DNA from: Chitinophagaceae bacterium IBVUCB1
GTDB lineage: Bacteria; Bacteroidota; Bacteroidia; Chitinophagales; Chitinophagaceae
Direction of reading: 5' to 3'
Assembly: GCA_002127285.1 (NCBI GenBank)
Contig: NFUW01000002.1
Coordinates: 1,647,630 to 1,711,629, forward strand
DNA: 64,000 bases
The notes under the pieces are model-generated. The model did not search any database, was not told the DNA's origin, and saw only the letters and a list, made by a program, of their open reading frames with translations. Position numbers and translations under genes: made by a program. Positions 56,616 to 63,781 of the stretch are shown here, piece after piece; positions within the stretch are counted from its first letter, which is position 1, and each line of letters begins with the position of its first letter.

Positions 56616-57332
56616 TTATTTGTTATTTACAACGGTATGTTTTTGCGGGTGTTTATGTAATGATGTAAGCGTAAACTGCATGCCTAATAAGCCTATTAAT
56701 ATAAAAGTGGTTACAATCGTATTCAACTTAGTTTCGGGTTTGCGAATACCATTAAAAAAATACAACGGTAGTAACACAAAAGTAGCAGTAAGTAATGTTA
56801 TTGACCACAAAACAGATGCCCCATGCCAATACTCAACTAAAAACAACGTGGATAAACAATATAAAACCCCAACTATGCAACCAACAGCTACAATCAATTT
56901 TTCTCTTTGAGAGCTAGCTTCTTTTGTTTTTAGTAAGAATAATAACGGTAAGAAAACAAAACTGAAGAATATGATACTGGGTATCAAAAACCAGTATGTT
57001 CCATTCCAATGCATTATCTTAAAAAAAGAACCGATAAAAAAGCCTGTTGTGCATAAGATGCCGCTTACAATCATGAGTTTTTTCATACCATAATAGTTTT
57101 TAAATGTTAATAATAAGATTGTTTCCTCTTCAATTTCAGCAAGACGTTCTTTGTAAAATGCCTCAATTATTTTTTGATAGCAGGCTTTAAAATCTCCATT
57201 CTCATCAAGCTGCCGTTCTATAATACAGCATATATGGTCAAGCAGATTTTGTTGCAAATCCGCTATCTCAATACCACGCTGTTTGATGTCATTGAGTATA
57301 TAATCTACCTGTTCATCTGTAATACGATACAT
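56616..57332 (-). CDS. Hypothetical multi-spanning membrane protein coupled to PadR
   Basis: A 238-residue protein. The N-terminal ~75 residues are soluble and helical (ITDEQVDYILNDIKQRGIEIADLQQNLLDHICCIIERQL), resembling the DUF1700/DUF1048-like regions found beside PadR genes. About six hydrophobic helices follow. The IGSFFKIMHWNGTYWFL turn recalls the KIMHWPG motif of GldL-type proteins, which may be coincidental. Its ATG overlaps the padR stop by one base (TAATG). The gene is A+T-rich. Probably the effector or target of the PadR repressor. Confidence 0.65.
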   Translation of the reverse strand: MYRITDEQVDYILNDIKQRGIEIADLQQNLLDHICCIIERQLDENGDFKACYQKIIEAFYKERLAEIEEETILLLTFKNYYGMKKLMIVSGILCTTGFFIGSFFKIMHWNGTYWFLIPSIIFFSFVFLPLLFLLKTKEASSQREKLIVAVGCIVGVLYCLSTLFLVEYWHGASVLWSITLLTATFVLLPLYFFNGIRKPETKLNTIVTTFILIGLLGMQFTLTSLHKHPQKHTVVNNK

Positions 57333-57673
57333 TATGCCAGCTTAGGTTTTATAGCTAATAAATCCTGCATGGTTTCTATAAATTCAGCAAACTCGTTTAC
57401 CCTTTCTTTTGCTTTCGTTTTTCCTTTGGGGCTCAGACTATAGTATTTGCGCACACGTTTACCAATATATTCCGTTTCTGTAGTTAGCAGTCCGTCTGCC
57501 TCTAAGGCGTGCAGCGTAGGATATAGTGCACCCTCTGTCAGTTGTATTCTGTCTTTGGTTATTTCCTTTACTGTTTGCGTTATCTCATAGCCATACATTT
57601 TCTTGTTCTCTGCAAGCAGTTTCAGTACAATGGTTTTGAGTGTACCCTTTATCAATTCTGATGAAAAAATCAT
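57332..57673 (-). CDS. PadR family transcriptional repressor
   Basis: A 113-residue winged-helix regulator. FSSELIKGTLKTIVLKLLAENKKMYGYEITQTVKE and LTEGALYPTLHALEADGLL are PadR signatures, followed by the wing TETEYIGKRVRKYYSLSPKG and a dimerisation helix. The ATG at 57673 fits the family N-terminus; an upstream frame to 57724 overlaps the putative operator. It is expected to repress its own operon. Confidence 0.9.
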   Translation of the reverse strand: MIFSSELIKGTLKTIVLKLLAENKKMYGYEITQTVKEITKDRIQLTEGALYPTLHALEADGLLTTETEYIGKRVRKYYSLSPKGKTKAKERVNEFAEFIETMQDLLAIKPKLA

Positions 57674-57691
57674 TATAATAGTTTTCTTGAG

Positions 57692-57732
57692 CGAATATAC
57701 ATAAGTTTTAAATACATAATACACTTATGTAT
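57692..57732. promoter_or_regulatory. PadR promoter with overlapping operator repeats
   Basis: ATACATAAG (57697-57705), ATACATAAT (57712-57720) and inverted CTTATGTAT (57724-57732) form one direct and two inverted half-site pairs. ATACATAA-N5-TTATGTAT is a perfect palindrome. The minus-strand -7-like box TATATTCG (57692-57699) overlaps the first half-site. Confidence 0.6.
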
Positions 57733-57776
57733 TAATTTTTTCTTTCCTTGTATTGAAAGACCGTACCTTCGCACCC

Positions 57777-59102
57777 ATGCAAAAGCTTTCGGTTGATACT
57801 ATACTGGCAAATCTGAAGATTGACAAGCTGAATGATATGCAGCTTGCCGCTATGGATGCAGGCAACCATCAGAACGACCTCGTGTTGCTATCAGCAACAG
57901 GTAGCGGCAAAACCATTGCTTTTTTGTTGCCGCTTGTAGCTGCGCTGGATGCTATGAACAAGCAAACGCAGGCATTGATAGTAGTGCCGTCTCGTGAGTT
58001 GGCACAACAGATAGAATTGGTATTCAAAAGCATGGGTACGGGCTTTAAAGTAACCTGCTGCTATGGCGGCCACAAGCGAGAGATTGAAGAAAACAACCTG
58101 ATAGAACCACCCGCACTGTTAATAGGCACGCCCGGCCGTTTATGCGACCATATACGCCGTGGCAGCATCACTACCGATAGCATCACTACCATCATCCTCG
58201 ATGAATTTGACAAGTCGCTGGAATTGGGTTTTCAGGAAGAAGTGGCTTTTATCATCAATGAATTGCCTAATATCAATAAGCGCATACTTACCTCTGCTAC
58301 AGAGGCTGTAGAGTTACCCGATTTTCTGCAATTAGACAATCCGCTACGCCTCAATTATCTGTCCGAAAAACTGACGGAATCATTAGGGCTTGAAATAAAA
58401 ACTGTAGCCGCAACCGATAAAGACAAACTGGAAACACTGCTGAAACTGATATGCCAGTTGGGCAATCGTTCCATGATTGTTTTCTGCAATCATCGCGAGT
58501 CTGTAGAGCGAACCGCACAATGGTTGGCAGAACAGGGCGTACTGAATGTGTTTTATCACGGAGCAATGGAGCAACGCGATAGGGACAGCGCATTGTTCAA
58601 ATTCCGAAGCGGAACGGCTAATATATTGGTAACGACAGACCTTGCTGCACGCGGGCTTGATATACCCAACATACGCTACATAGTACACTACCATCTGCCG
58701 CATACAGAAGATATTTTTACACACCGCAATGGGCGCACTGCCCGTATGGATGCCAGTGGCACGGCTATACTCATCCTTTCACCGGAAGAAATATTGCCGA
58801 AATATCTGGATGCAGATACTGTCGAGACAATTGAAGTGCAAGACGACAATCCCCTGCCCGAAAAGCCAAAATGGACAAGCCTCTTTATAGCAGCAGGTAA
58901 AAAAGATAAGGTGAACAAAGTGGACATCGTAGGCTTCCTGTCGCAGCAGGGAGAACTGAAAAAAGAAGACATCGGGCTGATAGAAGTAAAAGATTTCTTC
59001 TCCTTCGCAGCTATAAAAAAGATAAAAGCCAGCCATGCGCTGCACCTCATCAAAGACAAAAAGATAAAAGGCAAGAAAGTAAAAATAGCTGTAGCAAAAT
59101 AA
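57777..59102 (+). CDS. DEAD-box RNA helicase with DbpA-type RNA-binding domain
   Basis: A 441-residue helicase. Motifs: Q motif NDMQLAAM, I ATGSGKT, Ia PSRELAQQ, II written as DEFD instead of DEAD, III SAT, V ATDLAARGLD-like TTDLAARGLDIP, and VI HRNGRTAR. The last ~75 residues (WTSLFIAAGKKDKVNKVDIVGFLSQQG to the end) are a DbpA-like RNA-binding domain, which in E. coli DbpA targets 23S rRNA helix 92. The ATG at 57777 is preferred over an upstream TTG. A TACCTTCG box lies five bases before it. The stop codon is inside the terminator. Confidence 0.88.
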   Translation: MQKLSVDTILANLKIDKLNDMQLAAMDAGNHQNDLVLLSATGSGKTIAFLLPLVAALDAMNKQTQALIVVPSRELAQQIELVFKSMGTGFKVTCCYGGHKREIEENNLIEPPALLIGTPGRLCDHIRRGSITTDSITTIILDEFDKSLELGFQEEVAFIINELPNINKRILTSATEAVELPDFLQLDNPLRLNYLSEKLTESLGLEIKTVAATDKDKLETLLKLICQLGNRSMIVFCNHRESVERTAQWLAEQGVLNVFYHGAMEQRDRDSALFKFRSGTANILVTTDLAARGLDIPNIRYIVHYHLPHTEDIFTHRNGRTARMDASGTAILILSPEEILPKYLDADTVETIEVQDDNPLPEKPKWTSLFIAAGKKDKVNKVDIVGFLSQQGELKKEDIGLIEVKDFFSFAAIKKIKASHALHLIKDKKIKGKKVKIAVAK

Positions 59103-59130
59103 TAAGTGCCGCCAATGAGCGGCACTTATT
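59101..59130. terminator. Bidirectional terminator overlapping the helicase stop codon
   Basis: AATAAGTGCCGC (59101-59112) and GCGGCACTTATT (59119-59130) form a perfect 12-bp stem. The TAA stop (59100-59102) overlaps the left arm. Confidence 0.85.
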
Positions 59131-59141
59131 ATCAGTATTAA

Positions 59142-59648
59142 TTAAGGCTTGTATTCACCCATTTCGTCTGCACTCGGCCCGTAGCTACCCGGTATCGGAA
59201 TATCCAGCAGACGCAAATAAACACCCAACTGCGCACGATGATGCACTATCTGGCAATAGCAATGGCGTATGTTTTCAGCCACATTCAACTCACTGAGTAC
59301 TATATCTCCCTGACGCATTGTCCATATCCTTTCAAAATCTGCTTCACTGGCTTTTGATAGTTGTTCGTAACCTTCTTGCAAGCTTTTCTCTTGCAGCGCC
59401 AGCAAATCCGCAGTGCTACTTACTGGTGCAGGCACATAAGGTGTAGCAGCAAAGTCGAGCCCGTCTGTTGTTAGCACCATGGCTATCCATGCGGGTATTT
59501 CGGCTATATGGGTTGCCAGCTCTTTCAAAGGCATACTCTTAGGATGCGGTTTGTAATCAAACTTATCTGCGGGTACGATAGCTAAGAATTTCTTTGTGGT
59601 TGCAGCTTCATGTTGCATTTCTTTCAGCAATGCTTCAATTTGTGTCAT
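59142..59648 (-). CDS. DinB family protein, controlled by the WYL-locus operator
   Basis: A 168-residue four-helix-bundle protein of the DinB superfamily. KPHPKSMPLKELATHIAEIPAWIAM and the C-terminal CQIVHHRAQLGVYLRLLDIPIPGSYGPSADE contain the histidines of the metal site. DinB proteins often act as thiol-dependent metalloenzymes in stress or antibiotic responses. The ATG at 59648 is used; the longer frame is less likely. A TTGCTTTG box lies 25 bases upstream, and the 18-bp operator follows ten bases beyond it. Confidence 0.82.
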   Translation of the reverse strand: MTQIEALLKEMQHEAATTKKFLAIVPADKFDYKPHPKSMPLKELATHIAEIPAWIAMVLTTDGLDFAATPYVPAPVSSTADLLALQEKSLQEGYEQLSKASEADFERIWTMRQGDIVLSELNVAENIRHCYCQIVHHRAQLGVYLRLLDIPIPGSYGPSADEMGEYKP

Positions 59649-59673: not shown

Positions 59674-59681
59674 CAAAGCAA
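59674..59681 (-). promoter_or_regulatory. -7 promoter box of the DinB gene
   Basis: TTGCTTTG on the minus strand is one base from TAnnTTTG. It matches the TTGTTTTG box of the GyrI-like gene in sequence and in distance (ten bases) from the shared operator. Confidence 0.6.
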
Positions 59682-59691
59682 CAACCACCTG

Positions 59692-59709
59692 CTGACAGCC
59701 CTATGTCAG
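59692..59709. promoter_or_regulatory. Operator copy 1, CTGACAGCCCTATGTCAG
   Basis: An 18-bp site with CTGACA/TGTCAG half-sites and a GCCCTA centre, between the DinB gene and the WYL regulator gene. Its exact reverse complement occurs at 60719-60736. A likely binding site of the regulator encoded beside it. Confidence 0.75.
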
Positions 59710-59759
59710 TAGGATGCAGAAATTTTTTTAAAATATTTTCAAACTATCTTTACTCCATC

Positions 59760-60704
59760 ATGAACCGCCTCGACCGCATAACAGCCATACTCATTCAGCT
59801 ACAATCAAAAAAAGTAGTAAAAGCACAGGAAATAGCTGGCCGCTTCGGCATCAGCCTACGCACTGTGTATAGAGATGTCGCATCGCTTGAAGAAGCAGGC
59901 GTACCTATTATAGGAGAGGCTGGCGTTGGTTACAGCATTATGGATGGTTACAGGCTACCACCCGTCATGTTTACAAAAGAAGAAGCCATCACTTTTGTAA
60001 CGGCAGAAAAGTTCATTGATAAAATGACGGACAAAGCCACTGCGCAACAATACAAAGCAGCACTGTATAAGATAAAAGCCGTGCTGCGCAGCGCAGAAAA
60101 AGGCATGCTTGAAGATATAGAAGGTGCTATCCATGTATTTAAAAGAAACGCAAACCCACCCGCAGGCACGGGCAATCATATTTTCGACATATTGCAAAGC
60201 ATCAGCCAAAAGAAAGCCGTGCGTATTGTTTATTATACCAATCATTCAGAACAAATAAATGAAAGGCTGATAGAACCTGTTGGCATTTACTATGTAAATG
60301 GCTACTGGCATTTGGTTGCATGGTGCCATCTGCGCGATGGTTACCGCAATTTCAGGCTGGACAGGATAGAACAATTGCATAAAACAGATACGTCATTTAC
60401 CATAGCAACACCTACGCTTGAAGAATACCTGCACGATTTTTCGGGCAAACACAAGATGATTGAAATGGCAGTAGTGTTTGATAACAGTGTTGTGAAATAT
60501 ATTAAAGAGCAACGCCTCTACTATGGCTATGTAAGCGAAGAAAAAAAGAAAGATGTAACCGAAATGAAATTCATGGTTGCCCACCCCGAATATATTGCCA
60601 GTTGGTTACTCAGTTTCAAGAGCCAAGCAACCATCCTGTATCCGCAAAGTATGATAGACTTGATGAAAAACTGGGTAAAGGAGCTGCAAACGCATTATTC
60701 CTGA
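59760..60704 (+). CDS. YafY-type transcriptional regulator (HTH plus WYL domain)
   Basis: A 314-residue regulator. The N-terminal winged HTH is MNRLDRITAILIQLQSKKVVKAQEIAGRFGISLRTVYRDVASLEEAGVPI. The WYL domain (about 135-215) includes RIVYYTNHSEQINERLIEPVGIYYVNGYWHLVAWCHLRDGYRNFRLDRI. A WCX-like C-terminal domain follows. WYL domains bind small ligands or nucleic acid and control DNA binding. The ATG at 59760 fits the family start; a TATCTTTA box (59745-59752) ends just before it. Flanking genes (DinB and GyrI-like) carry the same operator, so this is a small local regulon. Confidence 0.9.
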   Translation: MNRLDRITAILIQLQSKKVVKAQEIAGRFGISLRTVYRDVASLEEAGVPIIGEAGVGYSIMDGYRLPPVMFTKEEAITFVTAEKFIDKMTDKATAQQYKAALYKIKAVLRSAEKGMLEDIEGAIHVFKRNANPPAGTGNHIFDILQSISQKKAVRIVYYTNHSEQINERLIEPVGIYYVNGYWHLVAWCHLRDGYRNFRLDRIEQLHKTDTSFTIATPTLEEYLHDFSGKHKMIEMAVVFDNSVVKYIKEQRLYYGYVSEEKKKDVTEMKFMVAHPEYIASWLLSFKSQATILYPQSMIDLMKNWVKELQTHYS

Positions 60705-60718
60705 AAAACATTTTACTG

Positions 60719-60736
60719 CTGACATAGGGCTGTCAG
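60719..60736. promoter_or_regulatory. Operator copy 2, CTGACATAGGGCTGTCAG
   Basis: Exact reverse complement of the site at 59692-59709, lying between the WYL regulator gene and the GyrI-like gene, ten bases upstream of its TTGTTTTG -7 box. Confidence 0.75.
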
Positions 60737-60746
60737 TACCCCGTCG

Positions 60747-60754
60747 TTGTTTTG
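60747..60754 (+). promoter_or_regulatory. -7 promoter box of the GyrI-like gene
   Basis: TTGTTTTG is one mismatch from TAnnTTTG, 20 bases before the ATG, with the operator ten bases upstream. The following TG....TAAACAAA also matches the DinB promoter. Confidence 0.6.
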
Positions 60755-60774
60755 TGCCATAAACAAATTAGATT

Positions 60775-61230
60775 ATGGAAATCAAAACACAAGCACCTGT
60801 TCAAGTACTTTCTGTAAACATCAAAACATCGCTAGCAACTATTCAAAAAGACACAGGCGAAACGCCCATGCATTTGTATGACGTAGCCACTAAAGCAGGG
60901 CTAGTACCCGCTGGCCCTCAAATATGGCGTTATGTAGGTGCAGATGGCAATAAAGACACAATTTTTTCGCTTGAAATGGCCCTGCCTGTTAGTGGTGTTG
61001 CAATAGGTACATCATTAGGTTATAATTTATCTGAAACGCCTTCATTTAAGTATGTTTCAACTATCCATCATGGCTCGTGGGACAACTTGTACCAAACCTA
61101 TGCACGGATTATTGCAGAATTACAAACCAATGGTCTGACAATGACTGACGAGTGCAGAGAAGTATATACAGTAGTGGATATGGAAAACCCTGCCAATAAT
61201 ATTACAGAAGTACAGATGGGTATTCAATAA
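60775..61230 (+). CDS. GyrI-like small-molecule binding protein
   Basis: A 151-residue protein consisting of one AraC-effector-binding/GyrI-like (SOUL-type) domain: VQVLSVNIKTSLATIQKDTGE, then PAGPQIWRYVG, and STIHHGSWDNLYQTYARIIAELQTNGL. Such stand-alone domains bind, and sometimes hydrolyse, hydrophobic or toxic compounds. Its promoter shares operator and spacing with the DinB gene, so both are probably induced by the same signal through the WYL regulator. Confidence 0.82.
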   Translation: MEIKTQAPVQVLSVNIKTSLATIQKDTGETPMHLYDVATKAGLVPAGPQIWRYVGADGNKDTIFSLEMALPVSGVAIGTSLGYNLSETPSFKYVSTIHHGSWDNLYQTYARIIAELQTNGLTMTDECREVYTVVDMENPANNITEVQMGIQ

Positions 61231-62560: not shown

Positions 62561-63781
62561 TTGAATTTTACAGATTTCGGGTTTGATGACGATTTGATGG
62601 ATGGCATTGAGTCGATGGGATATAAGACAGCCACTCCTGTGCAAGCAGCTGTGATACCCAATATATTGGATGGTAAAGACATCATAGCCGCCGCGCAAAC
62701 TGGTACAGGCAAAACGGCCGCTTTCCTATTGCCACTTATTCAAAACATACTTTGGCACACCAAAGACGATAATCAGGTAAACGCGATGGTAATAGTACCT
62801 ACGCGCGAATTGGCTATACAGATAGTGCAGATATTAGAGGGTGTTTCTTATTACACACCCATCAGTTGTATAGCCATTTACGGCGGCAATAGTGGCGATT
62901 CCTTTGCTATCGAAAAGAAAGCCTTATCGCACGGGGCAGACATTGTAGTGTGTACACCGGGGCGTATGATATCGCACCTCAACATGGGTTATGTAAAAAT
63001 GCAGAGCCTCAAGTATCTGGTACTGGACGAGGCCGACCGTATGCTTGATATGGGTTTTTACGAAGACATCGTAAAAATAATATCGCACGCACCCAAGCAA
63101 AGGCAAAACCTCCTGTTCTCTGCTACCATGCCACCTGCCATACGCAAGCTGGCTAATACCATACTGAAAGACCCGATAGAGGTAAACATTGCCATATCTC
63201 GCCCCCCCGACAAGATGAAGCAAGGTGCTTTTCTGGTGCACGACGAGCAAAAAATACCATTGGTAAAACACATACTGCTGCAACGCGAATACAATAGCGT
63301 TCTGATTTTTTGCAGCAGCAAGCAAAGCGTGAAGCAACTGACCAAAGACCTGAAAAAACAAAAACTACCTGCAGATGAAATACACTCTGACCTTGAGCAG
63401 GAGCAACGTGAGCAGGTACTTATCAACTTCAAAAGCAAGCAACTGAAAATACTTGTAGCTACCGATATATTGAGCCGTGGTATTGATATTGAAGATATAG
63501 AACTTGTCATTAATTACGATGTACCACACGAGGGCGAAGATTATATACACCGCATCGGGCGTACTGCACGCGCTGCATCAACGGGTACTGCTTATACATT
63601 CATCAACGATAAAGAGCAATTCAAGTTTCACCGCATAGAGCAGTTATTAGGCCATCCTGTAGAAAAAATGCAAGTACCTGCCGAATTTGGCCCAACGCCC
63701 GAATACAAAACAGACTTCCGCAAACCTGGCAATAACAGGAATAAGAAGCGAAACCAAAAATTCAAGCGAAAACCAAGCTGA
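62561..63781 (+). CDS. DEAD-box RNA helicase, RhlE-like
   Basis: A 406-residue helicase. The start is a TTG (62561): MNFTDFGFDDDLMDGIESMGY from this codon is the standard N-terminus of Bacteroidota members, and no ATG lies in range. Motifs: Q ATPVQAAVIP, I AQTGTGKT, Ia PTRELAIQ, II DEADRML, III SAT, V ATDILSRGIDIE, VI HRIGRTAR. A basic tail (NNRNKKRNQKFKRKPS) may bind RNA. A second RhlE-like gene starts 107 bases downstream. Confidence 0.92.
   Translation: MNFTDFGFDDDLMDGIESMGYKTATPVQAAVIPNILDGKDIIAAAQTGTGKTAAFLLPLIQNILWHTKDDNQVNAMVIVPTRELAIQIVQILEGVSYYTPISCIAIYGGNSGDSFAIEKKALSHGADIVVCTPGRMISHLNMGYVKMQSLKYLVLDEADRMLDMGFYEDIVKIISHAPKQRQNLLFSATMPPAIRKLANTILKDPIEVNIAISRPPDKMKQGAFLVHDEQKIPLVKHILLQREYNSVLIFCSSKQSVKQLTKDLKKQKLPADEIHSDLEQEQREQVLINFKSKQLKILVATDILSRGIDIEDIELVINYDVPHEGEDYIHRIGRTARAASTGTAYTFINDKEQFKFHRIEQLLGHPVEKMQVPAEFGPTPEYKTDFRKPGNNRNKKRNQKFKRKPS

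Follow-up and report, generated by a model that had tools for sequence, protein, structure and literature searches.

Results

The 64,000-nucleotide stretch of Chitinophagaceae bacterium IBVUCB1 analysed here (contig NFUW01000002.1; hereafter the window) carries a WYL regulator gene between two identical copies of an 18-bp element, each of which stands before a gene reading away from the regulator. The regulator gene (59,760–60,704, + strand; 314 amino acids, HTH_11-WYL-WCX by domain profiles) lies between a dinB-like gene for a four-helix protein of the DinB/YfiT type (59,142–59,648, − strand; 168 amino acids; PF05163, E 1.1e-9) and a gene for a GyrI-like small-molecule-binding protein (60,775–61,230, + strand; 151 amino acids; PF06445, E 2.5e-7), the putative targets 1 and 2 of the regulator, and the domain profiles bear out the three gene calls made in an earlier note on this DNA. 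The element, located by sequence search of the window and the genome and called the operator below, has the sequence CTGACAGCCCTATGTCAG at 59,692–59,709 (+ strand) and again at 60,719–60,736 (− strand), so that both copies read CTGACATAGGGCTGTCAG when written toward the gene they precede (copy 1 on the − strand toward dinB, copy 2 on the + strand toward the gyrI-like gene). Exactly 10 nucleotides past each copy follows a TTGnTTTG-type −7 box, as the note had claimed, namely TTGCTTTG in the dinB promoter (59,674–59,681, − strand, read from 59,681 to 59,674; the spacing is the same in relatives) and TTGTTTTG in the gyrI-like promoter (60,747–60,754, + strand). The two promoters also share the sequence after the box, with one correction to the note: TG is followed by three bases, not four, and then by TAAACAAA. 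Operator copy 2 is separated by 14 nucleotides from the stop codon of the regulator, and the distance from operator to start codon is 43 nucleotides for dinB and 38 for the gyrI-like gene.

The 18-mer has no third place in the 64 kb at up to three mismatches (100 shuffles gave 0 matches), and the two copies that the note had pointed out are the only ones in the 3.41-Mb genome at up to two mismatches, which means that the element is not scattered over the chromosome. At exactly three mismatches there are three further places in the genome (reversed control, 1). The degenerate form CTGACAWANNGYTGTCAN, at up to one mismatch, recovers both window copies and no others genome-wide (control, 0); at up to three mismatches its matches are at control level (159 + 143 versus 137 + 152 among the matches listed), and because this is the level of chance we claim no further targets in this genome.

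Outside this genome, a scan of GTDB genome contigs with CTGACARCCCTATGTCAG retrieved at least 115 loci (L035–L149; 116 sites) in nine named phyla, and the counts over these listed loci exclude the window's own sites. Among the matches listed, 66 sites belong to Bacteroidota, 30 to Verrucomicrobiota, 9 to Pseudomonadota, 3 to Chloroflexota, 2 each to Bacillota and Deinococcota, and 1 each to Chlorobiota, Spirochaetota and Rhodothermota, with 1 site without a phylum. The scan required exact letters, and bases 7, 9, 10 and 18 of the operator vary in other copies. About 15 chance matches are expected collection-wide (an estimate with uniform bases), therefore a few of the scattered matches may be due to chance. 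A homologue of the WYL regulator (phmmer, E ≤ 1e-3) was present in 60 of the 115 loci, all fetched by the 18-mer alone, in agreement with the note's assignment of the site to this regulator family; the regulator-bearing loci represent six phyla among the matches listed (Bacteroidota, Verrucomicrobiota, Pseudomonadota, Chloroflexota, Deinococcota and Rhodothermota), while the listed loci of Bacillota, Chlorobiota and Spirochaetota have no WYL homologue. In 55 of 59 regulator–site pairs the regulator gene precedes the operator and reads toward it. Weak conservation of the flanks of the 18-mer in these loci (cTV and tRg) suggests that the operator may extend to a 24-bp site.

The search was also run from the regulator. 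The window's regulator has matches in 151 of 395 Bacteroidota genomes, and flanks of approximately 1.5 kb were fetched around its 29 closest homologues in this phylum, the window's own gene excluded. A site within one mismatch of CTGACAWANNGYTGTCAN, a consensus partly derived from the same 29 loci, was found in 23 of them; a −10-like T[AT]nnnT follows at 10–11 nucleotides in all 23 and T[AT]nnTTTG at 10 nucleotides in 20. The half-sites at up to one mismatch were recovered in 23 of the 29 loci versus 5 of 580 shuffles. The conservation at related loci that the note proposed to look for is thus seen from both ends, by the 18-mer and by the regulator.

The fixed position of the box was examined with the sites oriented as CTGACATAGGGYTGTCAG. 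T[AT]nnTTTG occurs exactly 10 nucleotides downstream at 42 of the 116 listed sites, all 42 in Bacteroidota, and at none on the mirrored side at the same spacing. The looser T[AT]nnnT, at 10 or 11 nucleotides, occurs at 80 sites versus a background of 4.7% and versus 20 sites on the mirrored side, and where both a box and a gene were called (62 sites) the median start codon is 43 nucleotides from the operator. The −7 consensus of Bacteroidota is TAnnTTTG, and 24 of the 42 boxes are weak in that they lack its A (TTnnTTTG). No −33/−35 box was seen at these promoters, and TTTG directly upstream of the operator was present at 6 of the 116 sites; numbered from a −7 box set at −12, the operator would span about −40 to −23, with the −35 position at its centre.

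That constraint extends past the half-sites into the centre, as the note had supposed, was seen when the centre was left free. The core-free pattern CTGACA-N6-TGTCA-N11-TWNNTTTG matched 78 sites in 48 of the 395 Bacteroidota genomes (the window included, with 2 sites and 1 genome), and its reversed form matched none. At these sites A8 is kept in 75 of 78, G11 in 73 and Y12 in all 78, and the mirrored centre was found in 0 of 78; with C fixed at base 1, the pattern can detect a mirrored site only if that site is fully palindromic, and the fair test of direction is the 42 versus 0 given above. The centre lacks symmetry and has a single orientation with respect to the promoter. In 20 of the 59 pairs the regulator's stop codon (TGA or TAG) falls inside the operator, with its last letter on base 4 in 11 cases and on base 9 in 9, and an account of the centre as conserved merely through this overlap was rejected because the centre is also kept where no regulator gene overlaps. 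The pattern CTGACA-N6-TGTCAG alone was discarded as too loose: it matches 53 of the 395 genomes, many with unrelated A/T centres, and its reversed control also matches some.

The association of operator and regulator extends to whole genomes. Of the 48 genomes that have the composite promoter, 47 encode a regulator at E ≤ 1e-20, versus 104 of the 347 others (Fisher p 4e-21, uncorrected for relatedness). Of the 55 listed loci without a WYL homologue inside the fetched stretch, at least one (L112) has none simply because the gene lies past the end of the stretch, and 42, from 41 genomes, were searched genome-wide: each genome contains 1 to 6 copies of the degenerate operator (at least one by construction; reversed control, 0), a regulator of the same family is encoded in 40 of the 41, and in at least 23 it lies within 1 kb of an operator copy. 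Cohnella sp. REN36 (Bacillota; G403, locus L060) encodes 11 regulator-family matches at E ≤ 1e-20 and two degenerate operator copies, therefore paralogues there may read other sites. In a tree of 54 regulators (53 adjoining a site plus the window's) the sequences cluster by phylum, with 7 changes versus 25.2 when shuffled, and Pseudomonadota appear in more than one place; the tree establishes neither pure descent nor wide transfer.

The regulator itself combines a winged helix-turn-helix (wHTH) domain (PF08279), a WYL domain (PF13280, E 2.9e-21) and a WCX part (PF25583), and its best match by profile is PafBC (E 1.1e-47). An AlphaFold2 model (mean predicted local confidence, pLDDT, 88.6; predicted template-modelling score, pTM, 0.63) has as its best PDB matches, at ranks 1–11, the PafBC–RNA polymerase complex and DriD bound to single-stranded DNA (ssDNA) and DNA, with TM-scores of 0.29–0.54 by query length, and the first CapW/BrxR structure appears at rank 12. 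The alignment comprised 52 of the 54 regulators, the over-long frames of L038 and L066 being left out. Arg169, Arg192, Arg196 and Phe198 are kept in all 52, Arg199 in 44 (Lys in 4) and Arg202 in 49 (Lys in 3); Arg199 and Arg202 align with R201 and R204 of PafC, thus forming the R-x-x-R pair of ssDNA-activated WYL activators. Ten of the 52 (L048, L052, L053, L061, L077, L084, L090, L098, L118 and L119) are only 228–261 amino acids long and, by their length, lack the WCX part, yet accompany the same operator; the WCX part may be dispensable for site recognition.

Downstream genes were counted at 84 of the 116 sites (reading away from the operator, within 160 nucleotides, at least 80 amino acids), the control being 79 genes of these loci at distances above 1.5 kb; the family tables list 25 families each, out of 49 (downstream), 105 (control) and 34 (subset without WYL), and each unlisted control family has one member. 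The 84 proteins include DinB (18) and DinB_2 (15; both models can match one protein), glyoxalase (10), GyrI-like (8), Zn_ribbon_2 (7), OmdA/YdeI (4), RidA (4), AlkZ-like (3), Cass2 (3) and mycothiol S-transferase (2). The 25 families listed for the control include none of these, although a single unlisted match of each is possible there, and the commonest control family has 3 members. The DinB-like and GyrI-like proteins of the window are of the usual downstream kinds, which supports the note's reading of the locus. Where the locus has no WYL gene, the 42 targets include DinB, GyrI-like, OmdA and glyoxalase proteins and all three AlkZ-like ones. In the composite-promoter set, 27 proteins were scanned from L240–L269, many from one genus (the window's L243 was excluded, and L245 and L246 have no qualifying gene), and 19 are DinB, 2 GyrI-like and 2 WYL. 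Individual genes downstream of an operator encode a UvrB/Mfd-type protein (L081, truncated where the locus ends), an epoxide hydrolase (L070) and efflux parts (L122, L139), and another gives a weak match to AlkD-like proteins (L097, E 9e-5). The seven Zn_ribbon_2 matches are to the putative zinc-ribbon family PF12674.

The AlphaFold2 model of the dinB-like protein (pLDDT 94.9) has as its closest solved folds the DinB-like proteins 3gor, 3dka (YjoA) and 6iz2 (DR0053). The HxxxH usual in the DinB family would place a histidine at position 133. In the 14 aligned DinB targets, His47, His136 and His137 are present throughout, while position 133 holds Gln in 12 proteins, that of the window among them, Asn in one and His in one, i.e. 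other than His in 13 of 14; the note's description of this protein as metal-dependent is hence not established. Between the dinB gene and a converging DEAD-box helicase gene sits a hairpin (59,099–59,132; 14-bp stem, 6-nucleotide loop, free energy −21.3 kcal/mol, z −7.8) that is perhaps a two-way terminator. From translations alone, the flanks of the region hold a PadR-like short frame (57,332–57,724, − strand) and two DEAD-box helicase genes (57,753–59,102 and 62,561–63,781, both + strand).

Discussion

We propose, with a probability of roughly two in three, that a WYL activator which senses ssDNA runs a genotoxin-detoxification regulon through the 18-bp operator, in the manner of SiwR and DriD. 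The neighbouring WYL regulator, presumably a homodimer, would bind the element and read the half-sites CTGACA and TGTCA with its two wHTH domains, while the directional centre (A8, G11, Y12) would face region 4 of the sigma factor and so fix the direction of transcription. Promoters without a −33/−35 box, and often with a poor −7 box (TTnnTTTG), would be kept low until damage occurs; ssDNA arising from that damage would then bind the WYL domain through Arg169, Arg192, Arg196, Arg199 and Arg202, and the regulator would anchor RNA polymerase. The products (DinB/YfiT and GyrI-like proteins here, glyoxalase and AlkZ-like proteins in relatives) are predicted to bind or hydrolyse DNA-reactive small molecules, or to repair their effects. 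Some GyrI-like proteins are described as hydrolysing cyclopropane DNA alkylators (PMC5684135), and AlkZ-like genes in gene clusters as neighbours of VOC and DinB proteins (PMC9040887); with such published cases, the downstream families fit a defence against DNA-reactive natural products, the role of the window's own proteins being a prediction, and they lend support to the note's comparison of the locus with a detoxification module.

Among the open-licence PubMed Central (PMC) papers listed, as judged from titles and the beginnings of abstracts, the nearest work concerns SiwR, PafBC and DriD. WYL activators of DinB-like genes are already known. SiwR of Mycobacterium smegmatis is a WYL regulator adjoining DinB-superfamily genes in a divergent layout, with an imperfect promoter palindrome of similar length (19 bp) and, in some of its relatives, glyoxalase-like genes (PMC10693628); a WYL regulator beside a DinB-superfamily gene with a palindromic promoter site is likewise what the window and its relatives hold. 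The two palindromes, compared by length, position and layout, differ in that the SiwR one reaches from −10 to −35 and contains a conserved GGA at −26 (PMC10693628), whereas the 18-mer ends 10 nucleotides before the −7 box, GGA is absent in any register from the window operator and the composite-set consensus, and the 10-nucleotide spacer has no strong conservation. None of the 115 listed loci is assigned to Actinobacteria (one is without a phylum). The ssDNA arginine pair of SiwR is R204/R207 (PMC10693628). A closer match in plan is DriD of Caulobacter crescentus, described in a cryo-electron microscopy preprint (PMC12340889) as a homodimeric WYL activator whose sites all lie at a single distance from the −10 element and overlap a poor −35, with sigma region 4 at the site centre; the sites reported here show the same fixed distance, poor boxes and, by the numbering inferred from the −7 box, centring on −35. 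The driD gene is not autoregulated and a divergent operon is activated (PMC12340889), as in our proposal. The DriD targets differ (didA, bapE, dnaG, recJ and others), and the three promoter probes printed in that preprint, inspected by eye, contain no CTGACA-N6-TGTCA (PMC12340889). PafBC of mycobacteria, the top match by profile and fold, uses WYL arginines for ssDNA; it differs as a heterodimer with a −26 motif and sigma adaptation (PMC11804915), whereas here a single regulator gene, with a palindromic site and no second WYL gene beside it, is flanked by dinB and the gyrI-like gene. The operator strings searched for were found in none of the open-licence PMC papers covered, and searches there brought up neither the operator nor its spread, its directional core or the cross-phylum regulon.

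The sign of the regulation, which the note left open, and the nature of the signal are where other explanations have to be weighed. Phage-defence WYL repressors use inverted repeats. BrxR and CapW, the WYL regulators known from phage defence, are repressors (PMC10693628), both are wHTH-WYL proteins that match our model as well, from rank 12, and the operator overlies the promoter, so the regulator could be a repressor of their kind whose dimer blocks RNA polymerase until a nucleic acid or drug ligand releases it. We consider this unlikely: steric blocking needs neither a fixed spacing to the −10/−7 box nor a directional centre, no −35/−33 box is seen and the −7 box is often poor, and the operator mostly lies downstream of the regulator gene rather than at its promoter. 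No phage-defence family was among the 25 listed downstream families. We favour activation triggered by ssDNA over repression because of the DriD-like plan of the sites, the weak boxes, the PafBC/DriD-like fold and the kept arginines, and an operator at the −35 place with an often weak −7 box would match the DriD activation complex better; the geometry thus favours an activator.

An activator of the same promoters might instead respond to an electrophile, an antibiotic or another small molecule at the WYL/WCX part, its targets being general xenobiotic binders, as the glyoxalase, GyrI-like and RidA proteins, the efflux parts and the epoxide hydrolase downstream of the operators would suggest. 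This differs from the ssDNA-triggered activator in the signal only, and the probabilities of the two overlap; we hold it to be rather unlikely, given that the arginines needed by PafBC for ssDNA are conserved, that DNA-repair proteins (three AlkZ-like and one UvrB/Mfd-type) are among the targets, and that the WYL activators PafBC, DriD and SiwR bind ssDNA (PMC10693628). That another transcription factor reads the site, the WYL gene being a neighbour or a target, is very improbable. Such a reading would be in keeping with the 55 of 115 loci whose fetched stretch holds no WYL homologue and with the WYL genes among the downstream genes of the composite set, but operator and regulator co-occur at the genome level, nearly all searched genomes of such loci encode the regulator, often close to an operator copy, and a search anchored on the WYL gene recovers the site.

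Several observations weigh against the ssDNA-activated regulon. An inverted repeat over a promoter suits a repressor too, and the domain arrangement of the regulator is uncertain because of the pTM and TM-scores given above. Six of the 29 WYL-anchored loci have no site at up to one mismatch, and the 29 are not independent because many come from one genus. One genome has the composite promoter (G194) and another the site (G418) without a regulator at E ≤ 1e-20. T[AT]nnnT is missing at 10–11 nucleotides from 36 of the 116 listed sites, some of which have GAnnTTTG or CAnnTTTG there and one of which is cut by the locus end, and its frequency on the mirrored side exceeds the background. The 20 mirrored cases were inspected as candidate promoters and are mostly A/T runs, and the excess probably stems from such A/T-rich upstream sequence. 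Finally, the two WYL genes among the 27 downstream genes of the composite set suggest autoregulation in some relatives. At the window, autoregulation is unlikely because both −7 boxes point away from the start of the regulator and because the regulator is the upstream member in almost all pairs; the three-gene regulon put forward in the note is for the same reasons doubtful, and the regulator is probably not among its own targets here, which leaves two.

More broadly, and as a tentative view that we hold at somewhat less than even odds, a LexA-independent, ssDNA-triggered genotoxin-detoxification regulon may be older than several phyla and be run by one subfamily of WYL activators; the operator would stand in for the −35 element, and the direction would be set by its asymmetric centre, with sigma region 4 as the reader. 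Among the matches listed, the same 18 letters adjoin the same kind of regulator in six phyla. The letters of the operator offer an immediate route to listing the targets of a large and little-studied regulator family, and a shared purpose can be proposed for DinB/YfiT, GyrI-like and AlkZ-like proteins. For such WYL activators a rule is predicted, in which the half-sites would serve the regulator and the lopsided centre would set the direction.
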